Source: Adlercreutzia sp. ZJ141
GTDB lineage: Bacteria; Actinomycetota; Coriobacteriia; Coriobacteriales; Eggerthellaceae
Reading direction: 5' to 3'
NCBI RefSeq assembly: GCF_011038965.1
Contig: NZ_JAAKEB010000005.1
Coordinates: forward strand, 62,001-126,000
Length of the DNA: 64,000 bases
Below the pieces are notes generated by a model. The model saw only the letters and a program-made list of their open reading frames with translations. It made no database searches and was not told where the DNA came from. The position numbers were made by a program, and so were the translations under genes. This document shows positions 22,601 through 55,800 of this stretch, one piece after another. Position 1 is the stretch's first letter. The number at the start of each line of letters is the position of its first letter.

Positions 22601-22718
22601 AGTCTTTCGCCTTTGCAAACAACGTAAACGTGCAGCTTTTCATTACACCACATTCCAGCACACCGGCGAGCAGATTATTTGAAAACTGCGAACACGCAAG
22701 TAGGCGACACTGCGACGC

Positions 22719-23005
22719 AGCGTGACAATAGGGCCAGGGCCTATTGTATGTTGGGATTGTAACTGAATCCCGCTTGTAAGGATGCAGGTAGACGGCTTGT
22801 TTTTGGGTTGGGGTGTCTGCCTGCATCCTTTCGGTAAAGAAAAAGTCAAGAATCGTGCCCGCGCAACGCTCGCATCACTTCGCACCGTTTTACTACCCGG
22901 CGAGCATGTATGCTTTCTGTATGACATCCATGGCCTCGCGCTTGGACTTCATGTTGACGTGTGTGTAGATCTTGAGCGTGGTGTCTGGGCTCTTGTGGCC
23001 GGCGA
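22719..23005. repeat. Left inverted repeat of the accessory island (integrase 3' end)
   Basis: About 290 bp nearly identical, in inverse, to 31491-31777. It contains the final 38 or so codons of a tyrosine-recombinase gene, its stop, and a downstream hairpin (CTGCATCC arms near 22780-22835). The outer limit AGCGTGACAATAGGG at 22719-22733 matches the right copy. Sequence beyond diverges. Confidence 0.85.
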
Positions 23006-23311
23006 GGTACATCATCACCGACGGGTGCACGCCCTGGGCGGCAGCAAGACATAAAAACGAGTGGCGCAGGCTGTGAAGCGTCCAGCCTCACAGCCGTACT
23101 TCTTGCAGTGACGGCTCCACCATTTGCTGAGAGCCTGGGGCTGCGGGCGCTTTCCGTCGTCGTTGCAGCAGACGGCCACCTTGCCCTCAACCTCGTAGAG
23201 CTTGCCGTCAACCTCGACACACCCCGCCGCGCGCACGCCAGCGCACAAATCAAGCGCGTAGGTTGAATTACTAAACGCAACACTGGGGGGGTGTTGCATT
23301 AACATTTGCAA
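22893..23311 (-). pseudogene. Tyrosine recombinase/integrase 3' remnant, frameshifted
   Basis: C-terminal catalytic part of a phage-type integrase. Near 23074 the frame breaks: expected GRFHSLRHSFLCLAAAQG needs one extra base before the His codon. After it the frame reads LAGHKSPDTTLKIYTHVNM to the stop at 22893, with the catalytic Arg (SLRH), His (AGHK) and Tyr (IYTH). The N-terminal DNA-binding part is absent. The upstream stretch (residues from 23311) still looks like recombinase sequence. Reads outward from the methyltransferase operon. Probably inactive. Confidence 0.85.
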
Positions 23312-23437
23312 CCAACCCCTTATGTTTTTACGTCGCCAAAAACAAGGACCTAGACTTGAGAGAACCGTTTAGATAGTAAAATGAATCGGTTGTACTGTAC
23401 GCAACTATCTAGCCTGATTTGGAGCAACATCCGAGCT

Positions 23438-25201
23438 ATGCAAAACAACCTTTTGACACTATACCGACAGGCGTTGCCGTCGTTCCGCTCGGGTGTCTTC
23501 TTCAATACCTACGCGTATCCAACTAAGATAGCGCCAGAATCGATTGCCGTCTACATCGCCACGCATACTGACCCTGGAGAAACGGTCCTCGATTTGTTCT
23601 CAGGGAGCGGGGCGACGGGACTAGCCGCCCAGATGTGTGAGCACCCAACTCAAAGCATGTTGAGCATTGCTGAGAAACTCGGCGTAGATCCCAAATGGGG
23701 TCCTAGAAACGCCATTCTCTACGACATAAGCACTTACGGCACCTTTGCAACTCGTGTGATGACGAACCCCCCCTCTTCGGATCTCTTCGTCAAGTCAGCA
23801 GAGAAACTAATTCGTGACGTGGACGTCGAACTAGGCCATCTGTATCAGGCTAAGGATGACCAAGGGCATGTCGGCACTATTCGCCATATTATTTGGTCAA
23901 GCGTCCTAACATGCAGGCAATGCGGTCGTGACTTCACGTTCTATGAAGGCATGGTCAGTTGGAACCCCCTTAGAATCGATTCAAATGGCAAGTGCCCTCA
24001 CTGCGGTGCGAGAGTGACGACAGGCGATAACGCGTTTTCAATGGAGACGAAATACGATGCCTTGCTCGGCAAGAGCATAAGTAGCCGTCGTAGGATTCCG
24101 GTTCTGGTCTATGGCGAAACCAATGGGCGAAACTGGCGACGTACCGCAAATGCAGCGGATCTCGATGGTGTAACCAGAATCGAAGCTCTTGCCTATCCGG
24201 AGGACACAAAGCCACAGCCAATTGAATGGGGTGAGCTGTATAGGGCTGGGTATCACAGCGGGATTTCTCACCTGCACCACTTCTACACGAAGCGCAATTT
24301 TCTCATTATCGAAGCACTCTGGAGAAAGGCTGCAGATTACGAAAACGACGTTCGGGACGCGCTGCGCCTCCTAATACTCAGCTACAACGCCACGCACGCA
24401 ACCCTCATGACGAGAGTGGTCGCCAAGCACAATTCGTCAGATTTCGTGCTGACAGGTGCCCAAAGCGGCGTGCTGTACGTTAGCAACCTACCTGTCGAGA
24501 AGAACATCTTTAAGGGTCTACAACGTAAAATAAAGCCCTTCGCAAGGGCCTTCTCCTACATAAATGGGTGCACTGGACATGTCAAGGTTATCAACCAAAG
24601 CAGCGACAGGCTTCAAGAGGACGACAGGACGATTTCATACGTCTTCACCGATCCACCGTTTGGAGACTTCATCCCCTATGCGGAGGTTAATCAAATCAAC
24701 GAGCTTTGGCTGGACGCGACCACTGATCGCACAGATGAGGCCATCATCAGCCCCTCTCAAGATAAGGATGCCAATAAGTACAGCCATATGATTATGGCTT
24801 CACTGGCTGAGGCCAAACGTGTTTTAAAAGACGACGGGCTCATGACGCTGGTGTTTCACTCATCAAAAGCGGATGTGTGGCAAGCGCTCGCTTCGGCAAT
24901 AGAAGACGCGGGCCTCGATGTGGTTACCACCACGCACCTTGCGAAGTCACAAGAAAGCTTCAAACAGGTGGTTTCAACGGGAAGCGTGAAAGGTGACTCT
25001 CTTATACTGCTGGGCAAGACGGAGCATAAGTCAGGCGCATCTATCGGCACAGAAGCAGAGCCTGTTTTTTACGAATGCCCAAACGACCCGTATGAGGCAT
25101 ATGCCTCATACGTAAACCATTGCCTCGAAAACGGATTGCGGGTAGAGCTGGACGCCCGCGATGCCTACGAGAGATTTACATCATTCGGGGCAATAACATG
25201 A
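23438..25201 (+). CDS. Zn-ribbon-containing DNA methyltransferase (COG1743-like)
   Basis: 587 residues if started at ATG 23438 (GGAG 12-13 nt upstream; an alternative ATG at 23381 has no site and lies at a possible -10 box). An AdoMet-binding motif VLDLFSGSGATGLA lies at residues 50-63. A zinc ribbon with Cys159, Cys162, Cys186 and Cys189 is inserted. The catalytic TDPPFGDFIPYAE is near residue 404, about 340 residues after motif I. This layout matches adenine-specific methylases with a Zn-ribbon. First of three overlapping genes (4-bp overlap with the next). GC content appears lower than in the flanking housekeeping genes. Target sequence unknown. Confidence 0.8.
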   Translation: MQNNLLTLYRQALPSFRSGVFFNTYAYPTKIAPESIAVYIATHTDPGETVLDLFSGSGATGLAAQMCEHPTQSMLSIAEKLGVDPKWGPRNAILYDISTYGTFATRVMTNPPSSDLFVKSAEKLIRDVDVELGHLYQAKDDQGHVGTIRHIIWSSVLTCRQCGRDFTFYEGMVSWNPLRIDSNGKCPHCGARVTTGDNAFSMETKYDALLGKSISSRRRIPVLVYGETNGRNWRRTANAADLDGVTRIEALAYPEDTKPQPIEWGELYRAGYHSGISHLHHFYTKRNFLIIEALWRKAADYENDVRDALRLLILSYNATHATLMTRVVAKHNSSDFVLTGAQSGVLYVSNLPVEKNIFKGLQRKIKPFARAFSYINGCTGHVKVINQSSDRLQEDDRTISYVFTDPPFGDFIPYAEVNQINELWLDATTDRTDEAIISPSQDKDANKYSHMIMASLAEAKRVLKDDGLMTLVFHSSKADVWQALASAIEDAGLDVVTTTHLAKSQESFKQVVSTGSVKGDSLILLGKTEHKSGASIGTEAEPVFYECPNDPYEAYASYVNHCLENGLRVELDARDAYERFTSFGAIT

Positions 25202-27039
25202 GCAACAAGGAAATTGGCCAATTCTTTTCAGGACCCAGAGTCTCCAATCTTCTTGTGCTCGCTGCAGAGATCACCGATATCGAATCTGCTTACGCCATCG
25301 ATCCTATGGTCGGGCAGGCAGACATGCTCGTAGCCCTGCAGCAACACGGAGCGCACACAGAAAGGCTATACGGGATTGACATCGACGGCGAGGCCGTTGA
25401 GGCTGCAAAGGCGAGGCTAGGAAACAGCAACCTTCTTGAGTGCGATGCATTGAGCCCATCGGCTACTGACTTGTATAGCTCACATGAGTGGGACTTGGTC
25501 ATAACGAACCCGCCCTATGTCAGGTATCAGACCCTCGACACCTTTTACGGTGAGAATTCGGTAGAGACCATACGCAAACGTCTCATCGGGACCCTTGAGG
25601 CGCTCGATGCTTCGAGATCAAAGCGACCGTATCTCGAAGCGGCTAGATCGTACTCTGGGCTATCCGACCTCGCTGTGCCTTGCTGGATTCTTTGCGCATG
25701 CCTAGTAAAACCCGGCGGCAAGCTCGCAATGGTGCTGCCTGATGCCTGGCTGAAGAGAGAGTACGCCAGCGTCATCTATGACGTTTTGAACACTGATTTC
25801 ACAATTGACCGGATTGTCATCGACGAAGGCCGCACCTGGTTCCCGGATGCGCAGGTCAAGACAAACCTCCTTATTGCCACCAAACGCAATGACGGCAGAA
25901 CGACACCAGATAACACGCATGTGCATCATATAGGCTTGTCGAAGTGGGCAGTTAGCGAGCATTCACTTTCCGGCGCATTAGCGTACAAGGGACATGCTGG
26001 CGACGAGGCGTTTATTGATCTATGCCGAAACGGAGCGAATATCTCGAACAGCTTCGTATGGGCACGACGTGAAGACCTCAGCCGTGTTTCATATGCATCG
26101 TGTCCAGAAGCCGAAACGAGAACGGTGTCTCTTCGCGACTGGAGGCTTAACGTTGGCCAAGGCTTGCGCACAGGTGCAAACGGGTTCTTCTACCTGATGG
26201 AGGACGAGGACGGACGGGTCAGCAACAGTATTTGGGAGAATTGTGCAGGGTTGGAGCCTGCCAACGCTTGTCGCCTTCCGCTTATGCCGGCACTGCGCTA
26301 TCAGGACGAAATCAGAGATGCGTACACTGTAGCAGCACGCGAAACTGGATACCGGCTATTGCTCATCAGCAAGCCCATCGAGAACAGCCCCGCTCTTGCA
26401 GAGCGAGAATTGACAAGCTTGAGGAAATATATCGATTACTGCGAAGAGCATGATGTTGTCCAGGATGGACGACGCCAGTATATACCAAGCCTTTCGGCTG
26501 TTAGGACAAACGGACCACTCAGTAGTACGCCCGACGTAGATCGATATTGGTACATGCTGCCCGCGCTCAAAGACAGGCACCTGCCAGACTTGGTGATCCC
26601 CCGCATCAATGGAGGCGTCGTGCGCGCCTATCTCCTTGCTGGTGACAGACAGGTTGTGGCAGATGCCAACTTCTCCACGATTTGGGTTAGTGGCAAGGAC
26701 TGCAAAATGGCACACGCCGCGCTCGCGCTGCTGAACTCGACTTACGTCAGGCTCGAGCTTGAGCGCCACTGCAGCATACTGGGCGGCGGGGCTTTGAAGT
26801 GCGAAGCCGTGTCGTTACGCAAGTTGAAGCTACCTGAACCAAAGAGTGAACTGATAGAGGCACTGAGCCGGTGCGGAGCCGAGCTTGCGATAGCTCGCAC
26901 CATCGATGAGGCAACGGCCATCCAGACAAGTATCGACAGCGATATTGCGCACGTGATGGCCGTGAACGAACAAGCCAGTGTCCTGCTTGCGCGATGGAGG
27001 GAAGAGCTTAACATTAGGGTGAAGCTAAGGAGCGAGTGA
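25198..27039 (+). CDS. Eco57I/N6-adenine DNA methyltransferase-like protein
   Basis: 613 residues. AdoMet motif in AIDPMVGQADMLVAL (residues 33-47), acidic YGIDIDGEAVEAA, and catalytic NPPY at residues 104-107 (DLVITNPPYVRYQ). Then a fold continuing to MVLPDAWLKREYA and a long C-terminal half (residues 320-613) that resembles the target-recognition part of Eco57I-type enzymes. ATGA overlap with the upstream gene and a GTGA overlap with the next show translational coupling of all three. No nuclease motif seen. It could supply modification for a restriction activity in the third protein. Confidence 0.8.
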   Translation: MSNKEIGQFFSGPRVSNLLVLAAEITDIESAYAIDPMVGQADMLVALQQHGAHTERLYGIDIDGEAVEAAKARLGNSNLLECDALSPSATDLYSSHEWDLVITNPPYVRYQTLDTFYGENSVETIRKRLIGTLEALDASRSKRPYLEAARSYSGLSDLAVPCWILCACLVKPGGKLAMVLPDAWLKREYASVIYDVLNTDFTIDRIVIDEGRTWFPDAQVKTNLLIATKRNDGRTTPDNTHVHHIGLSKWAVSEHSLSGALAYKGHAGDEAFIDLCRNGANISNSFVWARREDLSRVSYASCPEAETRTVSLRDWRLNVGQGLRTGANGFFYLMEDEDGRVSNSIWENCAGLEPANACRLPLMPALRYQDEIRDAYTVAARETGYRLLLISKPIENSPALAERELTSLRKYIDYCEEHDVVQDGRRQYIPSLSAVRTNGPLSSTPDVDRYWYMLPALKDRHLPDLVIPRINGGVVRAYLLAGDRQVVADANFSTIWVSGKDCKMAHAALALLNSTYVRLELERHCSILGGGALKCEAVSLRKLKLPEPKSELIEALSRCGAELAIARTIDEATAIQTSIDSDIAHVMAVNEQASVLLARWREELNIRVKLRSE

Positions 27040-30000
27040 CTACTATGGATATGAAAGACTACGAGCTTCGCGCGGAGCTCGACTACGAGGCCGCCAGAGA
27101 CTTCTTCACGCAGGCAAGTCACGACATTCAGGACAGGTCAAAGGAAGACCCCTTACGCTACCTCTTCTGTACACGGTTGCCGATAATGTTCCCCAGCAAG
27201 CCTTGGTGGATTGACGAGCATGCCAGAAGAGCAGAAGCGAATGAAACATACAGCGTCAACAATACGCAAAGGAGCGGATTTGCCGACGTGTTAATTGGCC
27301 ACACCGCCGTCGAATACGAAAAGAACCTAGCGCAAAGCAGCATATTCGATCACGGATACGAGCAGGTCGAAGACTATTGCGCAGGCCTCCTTAACAAAAA
27401 CGTCGATCGTGACAACATCGTCGGAATCCTTTCCGACACCGTACACTGGTACGCCTATCGAGTTGACATCGAATATGACGGACGGCCCATGGCCGAAAAC
27501 GGCCTCTGGGGCCGGGATGACCTAAAGCTTTGTGAAATCGATCAACTCGACATGACAGACACTTCCGACGAGAACCTGGGGAGATTCGAGAGATTCATCA
27601 ACAAGTATTACGGACGCATCGGTTCGAAAGAGCTCACCCCGAAAGCGCTTGTGTCTGACTTCGGCCTGTACAGCGGAAGCACTAAGACCAGGACTGATGC
27701 CATACGAGATTTAGTCGCTACCGCCTGTAAAAAGAATCCTGGGTACGCGAAGCTCATTGAGGGTCTATGGTCAAACTTCGTCGAAGGTGTAACCGGGGTA
27801 GGCTCGGGGTTCACGGAAGACTACTCGCATGAGCTTTACATTATCACCCTCGCAAAGCTTATAGCGGCAAACATACTCGACGGCGGTGCACCAGAGAGAA
27901 GCGCAGGGCAGATACGAGAGATTCTTGAAGGTAGCTACTTCGTGAGTTTGGGCATCGAAAACCTTGTTGAATACGATTATTTCGGCTGGCTGAACGCAGA
28001 CCCGTACATTGACGGTCTTATCGACTGTGCAATCGAGCTGCAGCGAGACCTAATGGTCTACGACTTCGCAAACGTGGCAACAACGGACCTGTTTGGTGGA
28101 CTCATCTCTCAGATGGCAGGAGTTGATAAGAAAATACTTCTCGGCCAGGCGCCAACCCCTCAGCCCATCGCTGCAAGAATGGTCAGTAAGGTTATAGAAA
28201 ACCTCGACGGGCGAGCGCCCCATCTAGTTGACATGTGTTGCGGATCGGGGATCTTCATTGTCGAAACGCTGTCACGGCTCATCGACAACATGGGCAATCC
28301 GGCAAGCCTAGAAGGCACTGAACTCATTATGCTCAGCGAATCCATATATGGCTTCGACGTTGACCCGCTTGCCGTCATCCTTTCGAAAGTCAACTGGGTG
28401 CTCGTGATGAAGAAGTACCTTAGCTTTTTCGCGGGACCCGTACATATTCCAGTGTACCATGCCGACTCCCTATTCACGCGCACACCCGTTAGCACGCACG
28501 ATGACACAAGTGGCAACGAACTTGTTGCCCACCTTCACGATAGATCGGTTTCGATTCCGCAGTTCCTCATAAGCAGGCCTTATAGGCAACTGTTCGACGA
28601 GATGTTGGTCAAAGCCGACGTCGTCGCTGCCGACTACTCAGAAAAGGAGCAAGAGGTCGACGACGCAGACACGGATGGGATTTTCGCCAGCTTGGTAACG
28701 CATATGGGAACGGAGCTCGATGAGAACAGCCATCACTCTGCCGCAGCTACGTTTGCCGATCTTATCCGAGTGCTGAGTGACTTGCGCAACCGAGACAGAA
28801 ATGGCATCTGGCCTTTTGTTCTGAGCAACTCGTTCAAGCCCGCATTTGCCACATCGTTCTTCAACGGCATCATATCCAATCCACCTTGGCTTGCGCTCAG
28901 CAGGCTGCGCGGGAACCCATATCATGACGCGCTGATTAAGCTGGCGAATTCGCATGGCATAATGCCACACGGCAGCTCCTTCCCCCACGTTGAACTTGCA
29001 ACCATTTTCTTGGTGGCATCTATACGAAGATACGTGTCAGATGGCGGCGTGATAGCATGCATCATGCCTCACTCGATGCTTAACGGTAGGCATGAAGAGT
29101 CTTTCAGGACAGGGGGCTACCTTCGTTCAGGGCTAGCAACCGAATTTAAGTTAACCGAAATCTGGGAACTACCAAAGGAAGCCTTCAATAATCGCGCTGC
29201 AGTCATCTTTGCCAAAAAGGAGCACACCGATACTGCGAGCAGAGAAGTTGCAGGCATTGTGTTCGATAGCAGCCTCGATGAGACTCAAGTCACATACAAG
29301 CTTATAACTAACGGAAGGGCAACGGCCTTTTCCTACAGCACCCAAAATGTTGAGAAAGCCCTGGACGTCGTTAACTTCAATCAGGGCTTTGATGGAATGC
29401 CTCGAACGGCTGTTATCTTTAAATGCGAGCAGCAGCAGAATCGCCTCTGGACGGTTAGCTCGATTCCAACAAACGGCGACTCACTATCTTTTGCCATAAA
29501 GGACGGTAAGAAATGTAAGAATTTCAGCATCGGTACGGTCACAAATATTGACGGCAGTTTGATATATGAAATGATTACATCTAACCAGGTCATGCCCTTT
29601 GCGCCTGTCCATCCTGTAAGAGCTTTTCTGCCTGTGAAGTACGTCCCCGGGCAAGGAGCCGTCGAGCTATCCGATCGAGACCTTGCTTTGCTTGGAAGAA
29701 GCAACAAAGTACTTGCTGACAAGGTCAAACATTGCACGGAAGGCGGTGTTGAGTTCTACCAGGAAAAGGGCGGCTATCTCGCATATCTGGACACGAGAAA
29801 CAAGCTTTCGCATACACTGCACGACACTTCAAAATGGCGTGTCTTGTACGGCGCCGGCGGCAGCAACATTAGTGCGTCGGCCATTAATTGCGAGGAAATC
29901 AGCAGGGCACATAAGCTGGCTATTGACCAGACTCTCTACTGGCGAGGGGCAAACAGCGAGGATGAAGCCCTCTATTATGTCGGCCTTCTCAACAGCGACG

Positions 30001-30305
30001 CCATTAACGACGCAATAAAAGAATTTCAGCCCGAAGGCAACTTCGGGAAACGTCATATCCACACGCTACCCCTTAGCCTTATTAGCGAATACGACCCGAA
30101 TGATGAGAGACACGCCAAAGTCGTTGAAGCAACGAAGCTATTGCAAGCCAGGATTAAGAGGGCTTGTGCCGAGGATCCGCGTCTTGCTTCATGTCTAGAT
30201 CCTGCAAACGGTGCTCTCAGCGGTCGACGGAGGAGATTTCAGCAGTTTTATAGAACCCTTCAGGAATTCGAGCGCCTTAACGCGACGTGTATGGAAGCTA
30301 TTTAA
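27036..30305 (+). CDS. Large methyltransferase with possible N-terminal nuclease domain (Type IIG-like)
   Basis: 1089 residues from GTG 27036 (overlapping the previous stop; ATG 27045 also possible, AAGGAG at 27027). N-terminal region with GFADVLIGHTAVEYEKN (Asp84, Glu93, Glu95), a possible PD-(D/E)XK-type site in the ExE form; this is a guess. Helical linker to about residue 380. AdoMet motif LVDMCCGSGIFIVE near 397, catalytic NPPW near 615 (GIISNPPWLALSR), then MPHSMLNGRHEESFR. The C-terminal about 300 residues would be target recognition (RVLYGAGGSN, NFGKRHIHTLPL). Size and order fit Type IIG enzymes, or PglX-like methylases. No ATPase motif. Confidence 0.75.
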   Translation: MTTMDMKDYELRAELDYEAARDFFTQASHDIQDRSKEDPLRYLFCTRLPIMFPSKPWWIDEHARRAEANETYSVNNTQRSGFADVLIGHTAVEYEKNLAQSSIFDHGYEQVEDYCAGLLNKNVDRDNIVGILSDTVHWYAYRVDIEYDGRPMAENGLWGRDDLKLCEIDQLDMTDTSDENLGRFERFINKYYGRIGSKELTPKALVSDFGLYSGSTKTRTDAIRDLVATACKKNPGYAKLIEGLWSNFVEGVTGVGSGFTEDYSHELYIITLAKLIAANILDGGAPERSAGQIREILEGSYFVSLGIENLVEYDYFGWLNADPYIDGLIDCAIELQRDLMVYDFANVATTDLFGGLISQMAGVDKKILLGQAPTPQPIAARMVSKVIENLDGRAPHLVDMCCGSGIFIVETLSRLIDNMGNPASLEGTELIMLSESIYGFDVDPLAVILSKVNWVLVMKKYLSFFAGPVHIPVYHADSLFTRTPVSTHDDTSGNELVAHLHDRSVSIPQFLISRPYRQLFDEMLVKADVVAADYSEKEQEVDDADTDGIFASLVTHMGTELDENSHHSAAATFADLIRVLSDLRNRDRNGIWPFVLSNSFKPAFATSFFNGIISNPPWLALSRLRGNPYHDALIKLANSHGIMPHGSSFPHVELATIFLVASIRRYVSDGGVIACIMPHSMLNGRHEESFRTGGYLRSGLATEFKLTEIWELPKEAFNNRAAVIFAKKEHTDTASREVAGIVFDSSLDETQVTYKLITNGRATAFSYSTQNVEKALDVVNFNQGFDGMPRTAVIFKCEQQQNRLWTVSSIPTNGDSLSFAIKDGKKCKNFSIGTVTNIDGSLIYEMITSNQVMPFAPVHPVRAFLPVKYVPGQGAVELSDRDLALLGRSNKVLADKVKHCTEGGVEFYQEKGGYLAYLDTRNKLSHTLHDTSKWRVLYGAGGSNISASAINCEEISRAHKLAIDQTLYWRGANSEDEALYYVGLLNSDAINDAIKEFQPEGNFGKRHIHTLPLSLISEYDPNDERHAKVVEATKLLQARIKRACAEDPRLASCLDPANGALSGRRRRFQQFYRTLQEFERLNATCMEAI

Positions 30306-30441
30306 GGCAGGGTGATCGAATGTTGCAGGATGTACGATGATTACAAGCATACGACTGCCTTTAAGAACGCCCTTCGACCACGAACAAGTAACGATTGATG
30401 ACTGACCTGTGTCAATATTTCGGACACAAAAACTTGAGATT

Positions 30442-31401
30442 CTATGCCACCTTCAACACCCTTTCATCCATAGGTCTCGTTCGTTCAAAGAATGCATCCA
30501 TCACTTGCGCCGGGATCTTGTAGTCAATCGTTGAATGCGGTCTTTTGCGGTTGTAATAGACTTCGATGAACTCAATCACAGCCATCTTGGCCTGGGCGCG
30601 TGTGGCGAAGCTTTTCCGGTAGTACATCTCGTTTTTGAGTGTGGCAAAAAATGATTCGGCAACTGCGTTATCGTGGCAGTTTCCGGTACGACTGCACGAT
30701 AGTCGTACGTCATTGTCACGTGCCCACTCGGCAAGAAGGCATGAGGTGTACTGAGCACCCTTATCTGAGTGGAAAATAGCGTTTTCTGCCACATAGCCAC
30801 GTGCTTTTGCATTGTCTAGTGCACTCACTACGATATCTGCCGTCATGCGCTCAGAAAGCGCCCAGCCCACAACCATGCGGGTGCACAGATCAATAACGGT
30901 TGCTAGATAAAGCCAGCCTTGTCCTGTGCGCAGGTAGGTAATGTCTCCTGCAAGCTTGTAGGTGGGAACAGGGCTTGTGAAGTCGCGCCGGATAAGATCA
31001 GGTCGGGGTTTTGCACTCTTGTCAGGGATAGTTGTGCGTTTTGATCTGTAGGGAGTACATCCCTTGATTCCCAGCTCACGCATGCATTTCCGCACACGAT
31101 AGAGGGTGGTATTCCCGAAGTCGTTAGGCAAAAAGCACTTGATAAACCTTGCACCGAAGCGTCTGTCTGATTCTTCCCAGATGCGCTTTGCTGTCTGCCG
31201 TGTCTCATTCCAGTTATCAATCGATCCTCCTCGACCTAACCAGGCGTAAAAACCAGAACGTGACACTTCTAAGATGCGCGCCATCATCTTCACAGGATAG
31301 TTTTCCTTCTCCGCTAACATCAGTTGATAACGCGGCTTTACCCCTGCTCTTTCGCGAAGAAGGCTGCGGCTTTTTTTCTGGCACCTTTGCCAAAGCAGCA
31401 C
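30442..31401 (-). CDS. IS3-family transposase OrfB
   Basis: DDE integrase-type transposase, up to 319 residues. N-terminal segment with ILEVSRSGFYAWLGR (HTH_21-like), followed by rve core: first Asp in LAGDITYLRTGQGWLYLA, second Asp in IFHSDKGAQYTS, and Glu in ESFFATLKNEMYY. Intact over the catalytic part. Normally made as an OrfAB fusion by frameshifting at the A7G stretch at 31370-31377. Upstream orfA is truncated, so expression is doubtful. It separates the methyltransferase operon from the right repeat. Confidence 0.92.
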   Translation of the reverse strand: MLLWQRCQKKSRSLLRERAGVKPRYQLMLAEKENYPVKMMARILEVSRSGFYAWLGRGGSIDNWNETRQTAKRIWEESDRRFGARFIKCFLPNDFGNTTLYRVRKCMRELGIKGCTPYRSKRTTIPDKSAKPRPDLIRRDFTSPVPTYKLAGDITYLRTGQGWLYLATVIDLCTRMVVGWALSERMTADIVVSALDNAKARGYVAENAIFHSDKGAQYTSCLLAEWARDNDVRLSCSRTGNCHDNAVAESFFATLKNEMYYRKSFATRAQAKMAVIEFIEVYYNRKRPHSTIDYKIPAQVMDAFFERTRPMDERVLKVA

Positions 31402-31488: not shown

Positions 31489-31603
31489 CCTCGCCGGTCA
31501 CAAGAACCCGGACATAACGCTCAAGATCTACACACACGTCAACATGAAGTCCAAGCGCGAGACCATGGATGTCATACAGGAAGCATACATGCTTGCCGAG
31601 TAG
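31489..31603 (+). pseudogene. Tyrosine recombinase 3' remnant, right copy
   Basis: Encodes LAGHKNPDITLKIYTHVNM and the following MDVIQEAYMLAE to a stop at 31601. It keeps the catalytic His and Tyr only. Nearly the same as the left copy but in inverse orientation, also reading outward. The junction with the IS element at about 31489 cuts off everything upstream. Confidence 0.85.
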
Positions 31604-31777
31604 TAAAACGGTGCGAAGTGATGCGAGCGTTGCGCGGGCACGATTCTTGACTTTTTCTTTACCGAAAGGATGCAGGCAGACACCCCAACCCAAAAACAAG
31701 CCGTCTACCTGCATCCTTACAAGCGGGATTCAGTTACAATCCCAACATACAATGGAACCTGACCCTATTGTCACGCT
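31491..31777. repeat. Right inverted repeat of the accessory island
   Basis: Partner of 22719-23005, including the recombinase 3' end, the hairpin with CTGCATCC arms, and the outer CCCTATTGTCACGCT at 31763-31777, which overlaps the stop codon of the Trm9-like gene. A few substitutions separate the copies. Confidence 0.85.
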
Positions 31778-32666
31778 ACCGTGCGATGTGGCGCAGCACC
31801 AGGTATTCGTTCAGGTTGCCCGTGCGGCCGTCGGCGAAGAAGCGCGCTTGCACCTGCGCACAGTCGGACACCTCGCGCGCCAGCTCGTCCACGTCACGCG
31901 AAGTGAAACTGTGGCAGTAGCGATACGCAGCGCGCTCGTGCTGCCACCCTAAAATGAAATCGCCCTCGTCAAATTCTTCGGGCGTGAGGCTCAGGTCGGC
32001 GAGCGCACGCTCATGCGACAGCAGCGCTTTCTCGCGAAGGCGGTCATCGCGCAGAAAACCCCAGAACGACACGATGACGTATCCACCTGGACGCACGCTT
32101 TGCACCAGCTCGCGCAGCAGACGCACGCGAAGGTGTGCCGTGGGAACGTGGTGTAGAAAGCCAAACGCCACTGCAACATCGAAGAGGGAAGCGGAGCTGC
32201 GAACAGCAGGGTCACAGATAGCGGAATCGCGGGTAGCACAACGGGCAGCAGCAAGATCGCAGATAGCGCCGCAGACAGCGCTACCTATGCGCAGTGCACC
32301 GATGACATCGAGCTCGCAAAATCGCACGTCAAATGGCACTGTACCAGCAGCCTCGCCAGGGTCATCCACGTGTGCGATGGCGAACTCGCCCGCAAGTGGC
32401 GCACAACTGTCAACCGCACACACATCAAAGGACACCTGCGGCACCTGCTCGCGCAGAAACGCTTCGAAACGTAAGTTTCCACACGCCACATCCAACAAAC
32501 GGCACCAACGCTGCGACTCTTGCTGGTGCGCCGCATTCTGCACGTACGGCAGGCAGTGTTCCCATCCGGGCCATGAGGTGCGCCGCGTTTCAGAAAACGA
32601 CTTCGCCTGCGCAGCGTAGAACCGCTCGTTCAGCGCAACCAGCGCGTCAATTGTCGCTTCATTCAT
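31776..32666 (-). CDS. Trm9-like tRNA wobble-uridine methyltransferase (class I)
   Basis: 296 residues, class I AdoMet methyltransferase. AdoMet motif RLLDVACGNLRFEAF at residues 57-70. Trm9/ALKBH8-like points are an N-terminal FSETRRTSWPGWEHCLPYV (yeast Trm9 has FSQTRYKPWP), FGFLHHVPTAHLR, then LVQSVRPGGYVIVSFWGF and RYCHSFTSRDVDELA. A Cys/Ala-rich insert of low complexity (about residues 130-165) is unusual. ATG 32666 has GGTGGGG upstream; a GTG 9 bp earlier is possible. It diverges from elp3. Trm9 methylates the carboxymethyl group installed by Elongator; the pairing supports that role here. Other small-molecule or RNA substrates remain possible. Confidence 0.65.
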   Translation of the reverse strand: MNEATIDALVALNERFYAAQAKSFSETRRTSWPGWEHCLPYVQNAAHQQESQRWCRLLDVACGNLRFEAFLREQVPQVSFDVCAVDSCAPLAGEFAIAHVDDPGEAAGTVPFDVRFCELDVIGALRIGSAVCGAICDLAAARCATRDSAICDPAVRSSASLFDVAVAFGFLHHVPTAHLRVRLLRELVQSVRPGGYVIVSFWGFLRDDRLREKALLSHERALADLSLTPEEFDEGDFILGWQHERAAYRYCHSFTSRDVDELAREVSDCAQVQARFFADGRTGNLNEYLVLRHIAR

Positions 32667-46869: not shown

Positions 46870-49800
46870 CTAGCGCACGATGAAGGTGTAGAACACGTCG
46901 TCGTTTTCGCTGGTGCCGGCGATGGAGAACCGCACGCGATACGTTCCTTTGGTGGCTGGGATTGCTGCGGTCGCAGTACCCTTTCCATTGGAAATACTTA
47001 TCGTCGGAGACACTTTCGTTTCAATTGTTTCAAACGTAGCAAGAGGACTCTTTTGCTTCTCTACCGTAACTGTTACTTGACTCGCATTCGTATCACAACC
47101 AAACGAAACACTATATGACTCGTCCGTTCCGCTGAGAGCGTTATAGGTGCGCGGCGCATCGCACGCCACCGACAAGCTCGGCTGTGCGGCGTCAGTTGCT
47201 TTATACGTACTGCTCTGGTCAACATTACTGCACGTTCCATTGAGTACATTTGGTGCATCACCAGCACAAAGCTTCCATGTGATGTGGTATGAATCTGCGG
47301 GCAATCCGCCGAAGAAGAAGGTGTACGTTTTTTGCAGCGCATTAGCTCCGTAATCTCCCAGCTTGAATGCCACGGTGTTGCCATTTACCCATGTGCCGTT
47401 GATCTGGCTGCCGCCAGACTTCAGGGTTGCTGTCGCTTCAAGAGGGACCGTGAACGATGAAGCGTCCGTCTTGCTCAATGTGCCAACCAGATACACCTTC
47501 GAACCCTTGAGGCGTTCATCACCTGCAGGCGCAGTATTCACCTTAACGTCAGTCGAGGTCGCCCCAATTGCACCAAACACCACCGAGGTTACCGTGTAAT
47601 TCACTGATGAACCCAAAGTGTACGAACCTGCGCCCGCGCTCGGAATCAGTGAGAAGGAAACTGTACTGGCCTCCGGGTTAACGCCCGAGCCAAGCTCACC
47701 GAAGTCGGCACTGAGCAGGAATGTCTCGTTGGTCCCTATCGGGCGGTCAGCAAGCACGGGCGGGGCTGCCGCCGTGGCCCCCATCTCGGTGAACTGCGAG
47801 AACTTCACCGTATTCGCGCCTCCGACAGGAACCGTGTAGTGGTAATACGCGTTTGGTGCAGCATTGGTATTGGACTCAGCCTTTTCCGCGGCAAGTACCG
47901 TGAGGGTAAGATCGGTGCCAGCAGGCAGAGACTGGCTAAACGTAACCTGATAGTCGCGCCCAGTTACATTTGCGCCATCGCTTACCAGCTGTGCCGTCCA
48001 TGCGCCGCGTTGCGAAACCGAAACTTGTTTGCCCGTGTAGCCGCTTTCGAAGCTCGTAAACACCCTGCCGCTCTTGATAAGCGCTGTTCCCGTCGGGTTC
48101 ACCCAAGCATGCACGGTGAGCGTCTTTGTACCATCAGCATCAGCAGCGCTCATATCCTGGGATGCGGTATTCGCCGAGAGTTGCGTCTTACCATGCAAGC
48201 CACTCGGCACGGCCTCAGCATCGAGCAAGCCAAGACGCGTCGTGCCATCGCCGTTCGAAATATACCAGCAATTGAATTTATCCTTGTTATCACCCGTCGG
48301 GTTTGCCGGTATACCATTAAGAGGATCAACGGGCTCGGCTGCACCATCGGTTTGAGTGCGCAGCACGGTGGGTAGCGAATTGCCGTCAGCATCTTTAAGA
48401 TCAAGCTTCAAGGTGCCCACATCATAGGCAATACGGTAATGATCCTGCACCAGGTTGCCAGCTATGGTCGGTGTGCCATCCGTCTTCACAAACGTAAAGG
48501 TGCTGTTCTGAGCCCCACAGGCACCAATGGTGACCGCCGTAACATTACCGCCATTAATGGTAACCGTGGAAGCAGTGCTCGGAACAACTGTACCGTCGGT
48601 CCCTGTAGTCGCAGCGCTGCCACCATTGCTGCCAATAGCGTGGCTCGCACAGTTTGCCTCCACGCCAGCTAAGGTCATGTTGCCCTTGACTATCACATCG
48701 GCATTTCCAGTAAGCTTGCCACCTGTTTGCGCATAGCTGCCCTCGCCAGACAGACCCTTCTGGTACGTTACGCCATAACCGTTTTCGCAGCCTGCATCGC
48801 CTGTGCCTGAGATGGGCCTGCTCTCAGCTACTAATTCACAATTCGCCGCAACAGAAGCCGCCTCCGTTACCACCAAGTTGCCATCCAATACCACCTTCGC
48901 ATTGGAATTGATGGTCAGCGCCCCGATGGTCACACCAGTACTGTTCGTAGGCTCCATCGGTTGCTGCACGGTGATTGTCTTATTCGCGCCGAGGCTTTTC
49001 ACTGTTAAACTCGCCGGTGTTGAATTAGGGTCGGTGGCCGATGACACCTTCTCCTTCAGTAGCAGATAATTCAGGGACAAGTTGCCGTGGTCGTGAGATA
49101 CCCCGCCCTGGGTAATCTTAGATTCCTCAATGGCCATATTGCCATTGCCAACCTCAACGATCTGGGTACCGTTGATGGTCACATCGGACTTAGCATTGTC
49201 GATCACCAGTTTTCCGGTAAAGAGCTTATTGGTTTTACCACTGTTGACGTAGGCAACCTGTATGGTGCTGTTCTTGCTCGGGTCGGTTTTGATACACGAG
49301 ACTGTAGTGGTTCCACCATCCGTGCCGATCATGGATACATCGCCAAGATCAGATTCGTTCTGCAGATATATATTGCAGCCTGTGATGTTCAACGTTTCTG
49401 CTGCGTGAATCGGCTCTTTTACCGGGCGACCTGTGGTGCCAATCGTGCAGTTCTCCAAAGACACCGAAGTGCCATCTATCGCTTTCGCATTATGGTTTGA
49501 GCTTCCTTCAGCTTCTGCAACGATCATATTAGTCACGCTGACATTCCCCACACCAGCGCCACCAATCCATGCACCTTTGTATTGACTGGATGCACTCGTG
49601 CTTTCCTTTACGGCTATTCGGCTGTTGGTTATTGACACATTGCCGTATGAGTTTGCCCCTTCAGCGGGCGCTTGATTCCCAGAACCAATGCCCGAAGAGC
49701 TCGACGGAGCATTCAATTCCATCGACACATCAACCTTATCCAAGGTGATGCCACCGTTCGCGGGATTCGCCTCAGTGGCGCCGATAGCAGCTCGACCTGA

Positions 49801-52800
49801 CTCCGGTGCAAGCTTGATGGTCTTGTTTTGCGAGGCATCGCTTGCGTTATAACCACCCGTCAACGTTAGACTCGTATTTGACGGCACCAGGATGTTTTTC
49901 GCTTTGATGTTGCCCTCTTGGGTTAGGTTGACAACCGTTGGGCCAGGCGTAACCTCAGGCGTCACCTGAGCTGCGTCGATCAGCTCGATGGAGTTATTGC
50001 TCTCGATGTTCAAATTACCAAGGGTAATTGTGCGTCCTACAGATTTTCCTTCGCTATCAACTTTATTATCGACACGCGTGGTCATGTCGCCTGAAATCTT
50101 CAGCGTGTTCTCCGTTGGATGGAAGTCAGTATTGTTGCCCTCACACTGCAAGATCCTGTAGTCGCCGTGCCACGTAACTTTCGATTCGTATTTGCCCGCC
50201 TGCGTAAACCCATCAGGGGACAACTCGATGGAGCCTTCATCTAAATACAGCTCCATGACGTCGTTGTAACTGATGGTCACGTTGCGCGCAGGCATTGCGA
50301 ACGTATAGTTACCGTCCTTCTTCTGCGCATACTCATCAAGGCGCTTCGTTTCCACTATCGTATTGTTGGCTGGATCCCCAAACGTCAACGTGATGAACTC
50401 TGCAGGCTGGGTTGTGGGATTTGGCTTAAATGTAACCGTTGAATGATAGCTCACGGTACTTTGACCATTGTTTAGATGAATATCATTGCTCGGATCTATA
50501 TCGGTTGCACCATCTCCATAGGTAATAGCCCATTTGTCACCAACGGTCGTATCTTTTCCGAGAGCGTACTTTTTCGGCGTATAGCCAGCAGAAACTGTTA
50601 TCTTGCCGTCTTGCAGTTCTGTCGCCCTCGCGGCCGGATCCAAATCGCCCAGCGTCAACTGTGTCAACGACAACGACGACAAAGCAGCACCAGGCGCACC
50701 TGGAGGCGTATAACTCCAATTTGCTGCTCGGTCGTAGCCTTCAAGCCCGAGCGTAGCATTTGCCACCAGCAAATCAGATCCGTATTTCTGTGTGTCAATG
50801 CGGCGATAAACCTGCGCACCGGCATCGGCCCCTGAGCCGACACTCTCGCCTGCGCCCAGCAACTCAAAAGCTTTGGATTCCGACTGCGGCTGAATCAACT
50901 TGAGGTCTTCCTCTGGTTCTGGCAAATTCACCTGATAATCAACCTTATATTGAGAAGGCTGAAGCTTCACGGTGAGGTTCTGTTTCAACCACTGGCTAGA
51001 GAGAATGTTCGTATCGTTTTCAGTTTTTACAAAAGTGTATTTGATGGTAATCGGAAACCTATTTGTCTCGGTCATCACCTTAGAGTGATGCAGTGTCAGC
51101 TTTAGAGTCCAATCCTTACCTATCGCTTGGCTGGCAACTTCCGCCGGCTGGTCACCGGCGTCCTTAACAATAGATACTGGAGACAGATTAGAGTTCAAGC
51201 CCGTTTTTTCCAGCTTCAGCTCCAAAGCAACGGTGTCGTTAGCCGTGTACGTTTTGCTGCCATCGGTTGTCCACGAACTGTCGTACAAGTGATCATCCAT
51301 ATCGGCGACGTCAACAAGATTCAAACCCTCCGACTTGCTTTCCACATGATAGAAGAGCTGGCCCTCTTGCATACTGCCTGGTAGAACGTACGATGCAAAG
51401 GGGAAAGAGAATTCGCCAAAGGTGTTAGCCGTTGCGTCCAGATCTTGACTGATAGAATCTTGTGCTACATAGGCGGTGTACACATTGATGTCAACAGTAC
51501 CAGTAATACTAGCGTTTGTCAGCCACTGATTAACCGTATTCGTAAAGCCATTGCCATTATCCGGATACGCGCGACCAGAATCAACGGTGCGGGAGAGGGC
51601 ATACCACCCTGCCAAAGCATAGCCACCATTATTCTCCGTCAGAGAACTATAGTTCCCTTCTTTGTTTTTGATATACGTTTGGGGATAATCTGAGTATTGC
51701 GTCCAAGGGCATGAATGCATGATTGTGCTTTGCGTCTGGCCATTTCCATCCACGTACTCTTCAATAAACACCAAGGAACGCTCGCGATAGACACCATACA
51801 AGGGAATAGTGCAGCCCGAAGGATAGTCGGGCACCTGGAATCTCGGGTTACTGCCCGAGACAGTAGGATTCGCAATAACAGCATCCGCCAAGTCGTTGCT
51901 GTATTTTGTATCATCCGGCAGGAAGAATGTGCCACCGTCGCTAAACATGGTCTTGCTGTTTTGCATGTTGACGACTGCTTTCGCGTACTTCGTGTAGGTG
52001 CTTTCAGAAGTCGTATTAGTGCTATCGCCAGGGTCAAGTGCGGCAAACGTGGCTCCCAGCATGAAACGCTTATTATTATCAGTATCAGCTTCGCTGCCCT
52101 TGTTGAAAGCGTACCAATTCGCTTTATCGGGCCATGTACTGCTAGCACTAATGGGCCGGCCGACCGTGACACCATCAATCAACACCGTAGATTGATTCGG
52201 ATTATAAAAGTCCGACACATAGCTCGTTCCATAGGCATCATTTTTTACATGAAGCTTAAGGCTGTAGGTGTTCGGCGTCCAGTCTGCCACTAAGCTGAGG
52301 TCACTGAATCGCGGAGCGCAACCATAATGCGCGTTAGCTACGCTCTCTTCTCCCGCCTTTTTCCAACCTTGAAAGGTATAGCCCTTACGCGCGAGTGTGT
52401 AGCGATAGTCAGTATTATCAAAAGTGTTGGTGCTAGCGAAATGATCTTTCGTTGTACTATGGACGGAATAGTTCTTAGTGCTATCAGCACTGGTCACCTT
52501 GCCAAGCTTTTCATAGCCAGTTGGCTCGGAGCCAACTGGCACATCCACAGAGTACCCAGCAAGCGGTTGCCCATATTCCGGGGAGTCTTTGTCGCCTACG
52601 ATCTCAGTACTCGCCCACACGCCACCATTCAGGTTATAGGTAACCTCCACCGGACGATAGGAGGCATACAGTGTCAATGCAGGTGTGGGGCTCGACTCAT
52701 TCGTGCCATCGTAGGCTTTGTTCACGTCGAGTGCATCAATAATTAACTGATCCAGCTCGCTTTCACTGGTGACTTCGCAATCCTTGTTCTCTTTCTTACT

Positions 52801-55800
52801 ATGATAGAACCAACCCTTAAAGACATATCCTTCCCGCCATGCAACAGGAAGTGTCCCGATCTTTTCAGAGCCATCGCCAAGCAGTGTTATGTTGTCTTTA
52901 TCCGGCACGGTATCGTATACCCAGGTATAGTTCAGCTCATGCTTGGGACCCTGATTGGCGTCCGGCGCGGTAATATCTGCCGTCACCCAACGATTATCGC
53001 CCCCAGGAATCGAATTCTCGCCAAGCGATTTCGCGCTGAACTGCACCACGTAGGTGTTCGGTGTCCACTTAGCGTAAAGCGTAGTGGTATTGGCGCTTTG
53101 AAGATCCGATATCTTGGTTGCGGAGGTTACCGGATCCCCCTCAAGTCTGCTATTCGTGTACCAACCCCTAAAAGTGTAGCCGGGAGCCGTTGGGCAAATC
53201 AGGCCATCGTTCAGCCCATCTTCGGTCGAGGAATCCGCAAATGGCCCAATGTTGCCCAACGTAGACGTAACGGGTATATAGGCACTCACCTGATTATCAT
53301 CATCGCCACCATTATTCACTGTACCTGGGCTCAAGTTAAACTGCGTGTCTTCGGGGCGATTATTATTGTTTTTGTTTTGGTCAAGCGTTATAAGGATATT
53401 TACTACCTGGGTACCATCCTTGGTAACCATCAAAATCAGCGGGGTCACAGCACTATCGGCGTTAGCTTGGTTTTGCCCCACAAAGGCATCCGCCATGTCC
53501 GCCGTAACTATGTCACCGGCTGACACTTTCTTTTCGTTATAAGCGACCTCCATGACTCCCAACGTTTTTGTCATGTAATTCGACAGGTAAACACCATCTA
53601 CACCCAATATTTTGTCGCCATAGGCAACCGTCGCTTGCTCCTTGAAGCGATAGGTGTTTTCGGACCCTTCAACCACCTGCATAGTTCTCTCATCATATTC
53701 TTTGGTGGCGGTATCGCTGTTTGCGAACTGAATTTGGACCTCGAACGTAACCTGCACCTTTTCCCACTTGGCTGCCAGGTTGACTGTGCGCATGTTTTCC
53801 TTACTGATTGTAGCTACAGGATCATCCCCTAGTTTTCCCATATCTGGATCGTATTCATACCAGCCAAGGAACCTATACCCACTGCACGAAGCAGGTTGAA
53901 GGCTGTATGTGCCGCCAGATGTTACCGTGTAGTAAGGCAGGCCGCCTTCGGAAGCGGAGTTGGGGTTGTCCACCTTGTTTACATCGCTATCCAGCAAAAC
54001 GCTACCCTGCGGCCGAACGTAATAGTGAACGTCCACTACCTTCGTACCGTAGACGTTTTTCGGAAGCTTCTGCGGGTTATTGGTTGTGTCAGTGTAACTG
54101 GAGCTACCCGCACCCTCACCGATGACACCATAGGCATTGGTGGTGTAGAGGTAAGCTCGATTGTTGTCGATGTTAGCAACAGTGATGCTGCCTTCTTTGC
54201 CACTCGGCACATTGGCATAAGCGGAAGCAGCATAGACCACCGAGCCATTCTGGATAGTGAGATTTTGGGCCGACAAGCGCCGCGCAATAGATATGCCTAG
54301 GTTCTCATGTCCAGGAAATCTGTCAGTACCAATATATGAATTAGGATACGTTTTCCCAATAGCCCCGGCGATAGTGATATTGCCGCAGTTGGCCACCATG
54401 TCATACACGTTAATAGCGGTATCCGCCCCAGAAACGTTCACGGTGCCGTAAGGCATAAGAATAGAGCCGCCTTTTTGAGAATCCCCTTCTCCAGACACCA
54501 CGCCTTCCACAATGCCACCAGTTATGGTCAGGGAACCGAAGTTTGCGGGCGTTTGACCATGGGAAGTAGCATTATTTAGCAGCGTCGTCTGCTGTTCGTT
54601 CGTCAGGCCAAGAACGGCGTCTTCTGCAAGCTGCACCTTACCGCCGCTGATATTGACGGTTGTTTTCATGCCACCCAGATATGGAACTATACCGTCTTCG
54701 GTGGCGCCCTCGGGTCGAGCCACCTTAACCGTACCGCCCTCAATAGTAACCGTAGCGTCTGTGGGAATTTTCTTGTAGGTGTAGATATATTCCTCGTTCG
54801 CCTTCGGAACATACTGCGTGTAGCCGTAGAGTTTGCCGGTAGTTCCGATGGCCGGGGCGCTGACAGTACCGCCCTTAACGGTAATCTTGCCGTTCACGTC
54901 ACCGGTGATATACTCTTTGGCTGTTACCGTGCCGCCGTTGACCACCAGGCCGGAGTTGCCATTGCCATCGAGGATTCTCTCTCCTTTCTTCATGGCGTTA
55001 AGGAACTGGTCTTTTGTTTGGAATTCACCTGAGCCATTATAGAATCCGGAAACAACAATCCCGCCTGCTTCCAAGCTCGCATTGCTGTTAACCTGTATGT
55101 CTTCGCACAGCAAGTAGCCGGTGCCGGTCTGCCCAGCCTGAACCGCGCTTCTGTCGTCGGATTTGGTACTGTCACCAATTACCAACTTTTTCAGACGGGC
55201 ATGCTGCTCTAGGATGAGGTTAGCGTTATTTGTCAGCTTAACTTCCGGCGGAAGGAAGCCCCACGCGGTCTGATACACCCGGTAGGTTTTGCCATCATCC
55301 GGCACCCGCAGGGACAGATCAAGAGTAGCATTATCGATCACCAGACTATTCATGATCCTCAAATAGAAGGGACGTCCCGGATCGGTTTCGGTGGCACCAT
55401 TATCCGTAACGGTGATCCTTGAGCCATTTTGCATGGTGACATTCTGGCTTAAGTCACAGAAGGATCCCGGCCAGTCCTTCGATACCTTGAGCGTAATTTG
55501 ACATCCGTCAAAGACCACGTTCCCGGCTCTGTAGGCAAAATAGCTTCGGTTGTACCAGCCACGGTTTTTGTTGTTGTCGCCATCCTGATTCTGAGCCGAT
55601 TTATAGACGCAGTTCTTGTACGTCACCGTATTGTTGCTATCTTGCCCGCTATAGCAAAGGCTTCCTAACATACCTTGCGACCTAGCAAGAATAGTCAAAT
55701 CCTGCAGTGTGATATTGCCCGCCTGACCTTTAAAACTACCGATGGATGCCCAGTCATCCCCTCTCAGCGCGTCTCCATTTACGGTCGGGTAGATCGCATC

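Follow-up and report, generated by a model that had tools for sequence, protein, structure and literature searches.

A mobile trio of methyltransferase genes in Adlercreutzia, probably a Type IIG-like restriction-modification system with two accessory methyltransferases

The window, that is, the whole 64,000-nucleotide stretch of Adlercreutzia sp. ZJ141 DNA analysed here, carries at 23438-30305 a cassette of three plus-strand genes. They encode three different methyltransferases of the N6/N4 type:

23438..25201, + strand: MT1, 587 aa, a COG1743/BrxXI (PglXI)-like methyltransferase with an inserted four-Cys Zn ribbon and a DPPF motif
25198..27039, + strand: MT2, 613 aa, an Eco57I/N6_Mtase-type (gamma-like) methyltransferase with a C-terminal recognition-domain-like region and an NPPY motif
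27036..30305, + strand: MT3, 1089 aa, a predicted Type IIG-like fusion of restriction enzyme and methyltransferase with an NPPW motif

Adjacent genes overlap by 4 bp, MT1 and MT2 in the sequence ATGA (25198-25201) and MT2 and MT3 in GTGA (27036-27039). The MT1 reading frame is also open from 23381, and homologues align from 23438. The GC content of the trio is 51-54%, against 55-60% in most neighbouring windows. The first-pass annotation had described the 4-bp overlaps, the lowered GC content and three different methylase layouts (DPPF, NPPY and NPPW); all of these hold, the layouts being recovered both as motifs and as Pfam and PADLOC matches. Annotation of the window by ORFs, Pfam and PADLOC places no ATPase, helicase or PglZ in or directly beside the cassette. 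Likewise, Pfam and PADLOC detect no SNF2, DrmA/B-type helicase or PT-modification genes within it, such as DISARM and Dnd-type systems would have, and none of these is conserved beside the trio at other loci.

MT1 matches N6_N4_Mtase of Pfam (8e-12) and the PglXI profile of PADLOC (5e-111, residues 22-524 on 116-619 of 919). Its motifs are FSGSG, the four-cysteine ribbon C159/C162/C186/C189 and DPPF; the four cysteines, D405-P-P-F408 and an SFKQ motif are invariant among 22 MT1 homologues. The methylase core and the four-Cys Zn-ribbon insert are common to MT1, to BrxXI (PglXI) of Type 3 BREX and to the DUF1156 methylases of Hma/BR systems. A 2026 survey reports that the insert of BrxXI, with its four-Cys zinc finger, is without homologues outside BREX systems (PMC12839542). 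Judged by sequence, the insert of MT1 appears to be such a homologue. BrxXI also has a reported C-terminal triple-HTH region, for which the shorter MT1 has no room. Because MT1 has DPPF and is BrxXI-like, it is predicted to form m6A rather than m4C. MT2, for its part, matches Eco57I (5e-10) and N6_Mtase (7e-7) of Pfam and carries the motifs DPMVGQAD and NPPY, with N105-P-P-Y108 invariant among 20 homologues. At one locus (L031) MT1 and MT2 are fused into a single ORF. In PADLOC the three proteins of the trio are matched separately, to profiles for generic methylases and for Type IIG enzymes.

MT3 matches the REase_MTase_IIG profile of PADLOC (5e-48) and N6_Mtase of Pfam, and its methylase motifs are DMCCGSG and NPPW, the latter replaced by NTPW in two homologues. 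A search of PDB sequences found no close relative. The AlphaFold2 model of the full-length protein (pLDDT 80.5) was compared with the PDB by Foldseek, and the top matches, with E values from 3e-13 to 3e-11, are DrdV (3e-13), MmeI (1e-12), M.BseCI, CamA, BrxX and BpuSI (structure 3s1s, 3e-11, 12% identity); sequence identity to DrdV and MmeI is only about 10%. As a group these matches are Type IIG/IIL enzymes and gamma-type methylases, and the likeness to Type IIG profiles and structures extends over the length of an R-M-S protein. In the model the order of domains is a predicted nuclease domain, the methylase with DMCCGSG and NPPW, and a C-terminal region, which fits the one-chain organization of a Type IIG enzyme. 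The N-terminal part is the following:

27078..27638, + strand: MT3 residues 15-201, predicted PD-(D/E)XK-type nuclease domain with E37, E67, D84, E93, E95, Q110 and Y114

Modelled separately (pLDDT 89.5, pTM 0.88), this domain has the topology helix-strand-strand-strand-helix-strand. The second strand contains D84, E93 and E95 fall at the third, and the helix after it contributes Q110 and Y114. A possible D...ExE site at Asp84/Glu93/Glu95 had been pointed out before, and these residues are indeed found, without exception, in the trio MT3s that reach this far. Of the trio MT3s, 34 span the region, and none of them departs from D84, E93, E95 or Q110; two copies from viral contigs have Q in place of Y114. 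E37 and E67 are likewise conserved wherever the trio MT3s include them. The nuclease fold that the first-pass annotation had proposed to look for was recovered in one respect, as the AlphaFold model predicts a PD-(D/E)XK-type topology, and not in the other, as Pfam gives no match to the domain and Foldseek gives, for the domain alone, a single relevant match, a weak one to DrdV (E 0.01, probability 0.77). For that reason, the assignment of the fold leans mainly on the motif and the predicted topology.

A scan of genome contigs with MT3 yielded 28 loci with a full-length or nearly full-length relative, at 34-97% identity, from Actinomycetota, Bacillota, Pseudomonadota, Bacteroidota, Chloroflexota, Acidobacteriota and candidate BRC1. 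A neighbourhood search for the trio had been suggested before, and it shows MT1 and MT2 homologues directly upstream of MT3, on the same strand and in the same order, at 28 of 28 loci (MT2 is broken into pieces at L030, and MT1 is cut by the contig edge at L026). At another locus, L034, a phospholipase-D-like gene lies between MT2 and MT3. Since the order is identical at every locus with a full-length MT3 relative, the association of the three genes is far beyond chance. The trio is also carried by six viral-called contigs, one of which ends within MT1, and by a Hymenobacter plasmid, where the MT1 match is in two pieces. Four E. coli chromosomes matched MT1 and MT2. Two were inspected, and both have the complete trio in unchanged order, within an island that is bounded by nanCM on one side and by a tRNA-Leu gene next to idn on the other and that also encodes an HNH endonuclease, the helicase YjhR and a phosphorothioate-dependent restriction enzyme. 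RefSeq labels these two MT3 copies differently, one as "hypothetical protein" and one as "DNA methyltransferase family protein".

The co-occurrence of MT1 with MT3 was assessed in Coriobacteriia and Actinomycetota. A short, strongly matching MT1 is present in exactly 4 of 398 Coriobacteriia genomes, and these are the genomes with a strong full-length MT3. Distant MT3 relatives, at about 22-27% identity, stand alone without MT1 or MT2. Stand-alone MT3 relatives, again without MT1 or MT2, are also found in other Coriobacteriia (L088, L089 and L090), and in these ExE is followed by a 4-residue insertion (IEYEPPRSFN). Clustering of neighbour genes over the 28 loci revealed no fourth component, in that no other gene family occurs at more than 4 of them. 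The occasional neighbours encode XRE-type (4 loci), Cro-like (2), ribbon-helix-helix (4) and phospholipase-D-like (3) proteins and AAA-domain proteins, including AAA_13 (4). An AAA_13 (RloC/PrrC-like) gene adjoins the trio directly downstream in three Coriobacteriia (L013:12360-13708, broken; L014:12302-14494; L015:12342-14603) and upstream in Stenotrophomonas (L033:2212-4515); the window has no AAA_13 gene and has an IS3 element instead.

Across 16 loci the pairwise identities of MT1, MT2 and MT3 are correlated, with r of 0.68-0.87 between proteins. Conservation is 0.34-0.41 in the recognition regions and 0.47-0.60 in the catalytic regions, with domain boundaries that are estimates. Both the correlated identities and the modest divergence of the recognition regions are to be expected if the three proteins must keep one target. 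At the level of sequence they support, and do not prove, one shared and slowly changing target for the trio, as the correlation partly reflects shared host phylogeny and the boundaries are estimated.

The surroundings of the cassette bear on its mobility and include the following features:

23321..30401, + strand: exchanged block of 7.1 kb, common to two other Coriobacteriia, flanks unrelated (blastn)
22704..23007, - strand: left remnant of a tyrosine-integrase 3' end, inverted-repeat arm, with the translation ...GHKSPDTTLKIYTHVNMKSKRE...
31489..31792, + strand: right remnant of the same tyrosine-integrase 3' end, inverted-repeat arm
30442..31401, - strand: IS3-type transposase (Pfam rve, 2e-23, and HTH_21), between MT3 and the right integrase remnant

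By blastn, the block is 96.4% identical in DNA to positions 5286-12366 of L013, from Adlercreutzia sp. ZJ304, and 80.0% identical to positions 5290-12365 of L014, from an uncultured Coriobacteriaceae genome. The two alignments end at nearly identical points, and neither extends into the flanks. Because the block is shared with both loci while the flanks are unrelated, the trio is the moving unit. The cassette is framed by a 304-nt inverted repeat (22704-23007 and 31489-31792, 93% complementary) made of the integrase remnants, which are the only two long copies in the genome; the left remnant retains more of the gene, with frame breaks. In G169, another genome of this family, about 0.9 kb separates a homologue of the flanking methyltransferase gene from one of acetate kinase; order and orientation are unchanged, and the trio is missing. 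Judged by gene order and spacing, this is the arrangement that an insertion would leave. The three genes travel together in a unit of 7 kb that is often found close to integrases and within defence islands. A 24-bp perfect palindrome inside the MT1 gene (25089-25112) was considered as an operator and rejected, as it is not kept in L013 or L014. Elsewhere in the window, a single minus-strand ORF of 4758 codons occupies 46870-61146, in DNA of lower GC content (about 48-54%); it possibly encodes a giant surface protein.

Does MT3 cut DNA, or does the cassette only modify it? The motif D84...E93-x-E95 with Q110xxxY114 can be aligned, position by position, with stand-alone Type IIG relatives of MT3, in which the position of E95 is that of the catalytic lysine. 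All trio members have E at this position, not the canonical K. A cassette dedicated to modification, epigenetic or anti-restriction, would label host or mobile-element DNA, and the N-terminus of MT3 would be a dead nuclease kept for DNA binding. The lack of the ExK lysine in every trio MT3 is in line with such a function, as are the weak structural match of the nuclease domain and the presence of the cassette near integrases and on viral-called contigs. However, a dead domain would have no need of E37, E67, D84, E93, E95 and Q110, which are kept across phyla. Moreover, eight stand-alone relatives keep the D, E, Q and Y, with four of them having K at position 95 and four having E, and glutamate in place of the catalytic lysine is documented in the restriction endonuclease BamHI, an active enzyme (PMC4081073). 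Since the residues are kept, K and E alternate in the stand-alone proteins and BamHI provides a precedent, motif and model are better explained by an active nuclease whose third residue is BamHI-like than by a dead domain, and we regard a modification-only cassette as unlikely.

The relationship of MT1 to PglXI/BrxXI, clear from the PADLOC match and from the four-Cys insert reported for BrxXI, raises another explanation, namely, that a BREX/Pgl-like or Hma-like system has shrunk here to its methylases, with MT1 as its BrxXI and with the ATPase, PglZ and helicase lost or acting in trans. The genome does encode a DUF499 ATPase. It is, however, the only one, and it is part of a complete hmaABC locus on another contig, with a DUF1156 methylase and a helicase of its own. 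PglZ was not found in this genome. A partner in trans, whether ATPase or PglZ, was rejected on these grounds. The partner genes of BREX and Hma are absent from the trio locus, and among the neighbour genes common to the 28 loci there is no PglZ, no helicase and no BrxC-type ATPase such as a BREX system would have. The first-pass annotation had noted that no ATPase, PglZ, helicase or SNF2 partner is present, which agrees with the annotation of the cassette and with the neighbours at the 28 loci. It had also named, as an outcome that would speak against its proposal, a trio always found beside an ATPase or PglZ that had been lost here; this was looked for and not found, no fourth gene being present at more than 4 of the 28 loci. 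In addition, the MT1 proteins of the trio, at about 590 aa, differ from the other strong MT1-like matches in Coriobacteriia and Actinomycetota, which at about 830-1010 aa are BrxXI-sized. With no conserved ATPase, PglZ or helicase, no PglZ in the genome and the DUF499 ATPase engaged in hmaABC, a BREX remnant is quite improbable. The Hma system itself (L101, contig C57, 63000-82000) consists of a helicase, a DUF1156 methylase and a HEPN-DUF499 ATPase and adjoins genes matching IetS and PDC-S02, so that the genome has a second defence island.

That two systems lie side by side by chance, a stand-alone Type IIG/IIL MT3 and an unrelated two-methylase operon, might be suggested by the distant MT3 relatives that occur alone, but it is very improbable given an order that is invariant, and a spacing nearly so, among all close relatives, the 4-bp overlaps, transfer as a single 7.1-kb block and the exact co-occurrence of MT1 and MT3 in Coriobacteriia.

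The closest precedents are Type IIG enzymes with accompanying methylases. BpuSI is organized as R~gammaM~S & M1 & M2 and BseRI as R~gammaM~S & M1~M2, and the accompanying methylases of such systems modify both strands (PMC3874165). The layout of an RM enzyme with M1 and M2 is found at all 28 trio loci, in fused form at L031. Like the trio, BseRI has a fused R-M-S enzyme and two accessory methylases, a likeness seen in the published layout. Its accessory pair is one chain, an m4C-MTase~gamma-MTase (PMC3874165), the same layout as in the MT1~MT2 ORF of L031, and the annotation "BseRI" has been given to a plasmid-borne, stand-alone relative of MT3. In contrast to BseRI, the trio of the window has MT1 and MT2 as separate genes, and its MT1 is a BrxXI-like protein with DPPF, predicted to form m6A and not m4C. 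BpuSI resembles the trio in having three proteins, an R-M-S enzyme, a gamma-methylase and a second methylase, and its structure 3s1s is among the fold matches of MT3. Its second methylase, however, is an m5C enzyme and its cleavage domain is FokI-like (PMC3874165), whereas the N-terminal domain of MT3 has D..ExE with QxxxY. The single-chain Type IIG/IIL enzymes DrdV and MmeI are the best structural matches to full-length MT3; unlike the trio, enzymes of the MmeI family need no accompanying methylases (PMC3874165).

Beyond the layouts of BpuSI and BseRI, no published trio of this composition was found in the open-access literature searched. The earlier suggestion that the locus is of a possibly undescribed kind is not supported, since RM & M1 & M2 has been published for BpuSI and M1~M2 for BseRI. 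The other suggestions, of a compact modification-based defence and of a Type IIG system with two accessory methylases, fared better: both are supported by the Type IIG/IIL structural and PADLOC matches of MT3 and by the conserved motif in its predicted N-terminal nuclease domain. Because its MT1 is BrxXI-like (DPPF, predicted m6A) and its MT3 has the ExE site, the trio is distinct from the described examples. Most likely, it is a widespread, unrecognised form of a known kind of restriction-modification system.

We propose, with a probability of roughly 0.78, that the cassette is a Type IIG-like restriction-modification system with two accessory methyltransferases. In such a system, MT3 would use its C-terminal recognition domain to find a fixed and probably asymmetric site, methylate adenine on one strand of the site and cut the unmodified site a fixed distance away by means of its N-terminal PD-(D/E)XK-type domain (D84, E93, E95), with a requirement for S-adenosylmethionine and none for ATP. 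MT1 and MT2 would recognise the same site, which is our assumption, by their own recognition regions and would together methylate both its strands. Newly replicated host DNA would in this way be spared from cutting, and unmodified incoming DNA of phages or plasmids would be cleaved. A more far-reaching possibility, which we consider unlikely, is that the trio is a distinct class of ATP-independent defence, in which an MT1 of BREX/Hma lineage was recruited into a Type IIG system, one target shared by all three methylases was frozen across phyla, and the ExE nuclease would be licensed, not simply blocked, by the methylation pattern of MT1 and MT2.

Although this compact trio is conserved in many phyla and occurs in E. 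coli too, RefSeq lists its effector MT3 as a hypothetical protein or a methyltransferase. If the proposed mechanism of Type IIG-like restriction with two accessory methyltransferases is true, the trio would add a family of restriction enzymes that, to judge by the modest divergence of their recognition regions, seem to share a single target; it would also link BREX-type methylases to Type IIG restriction outside BREX.
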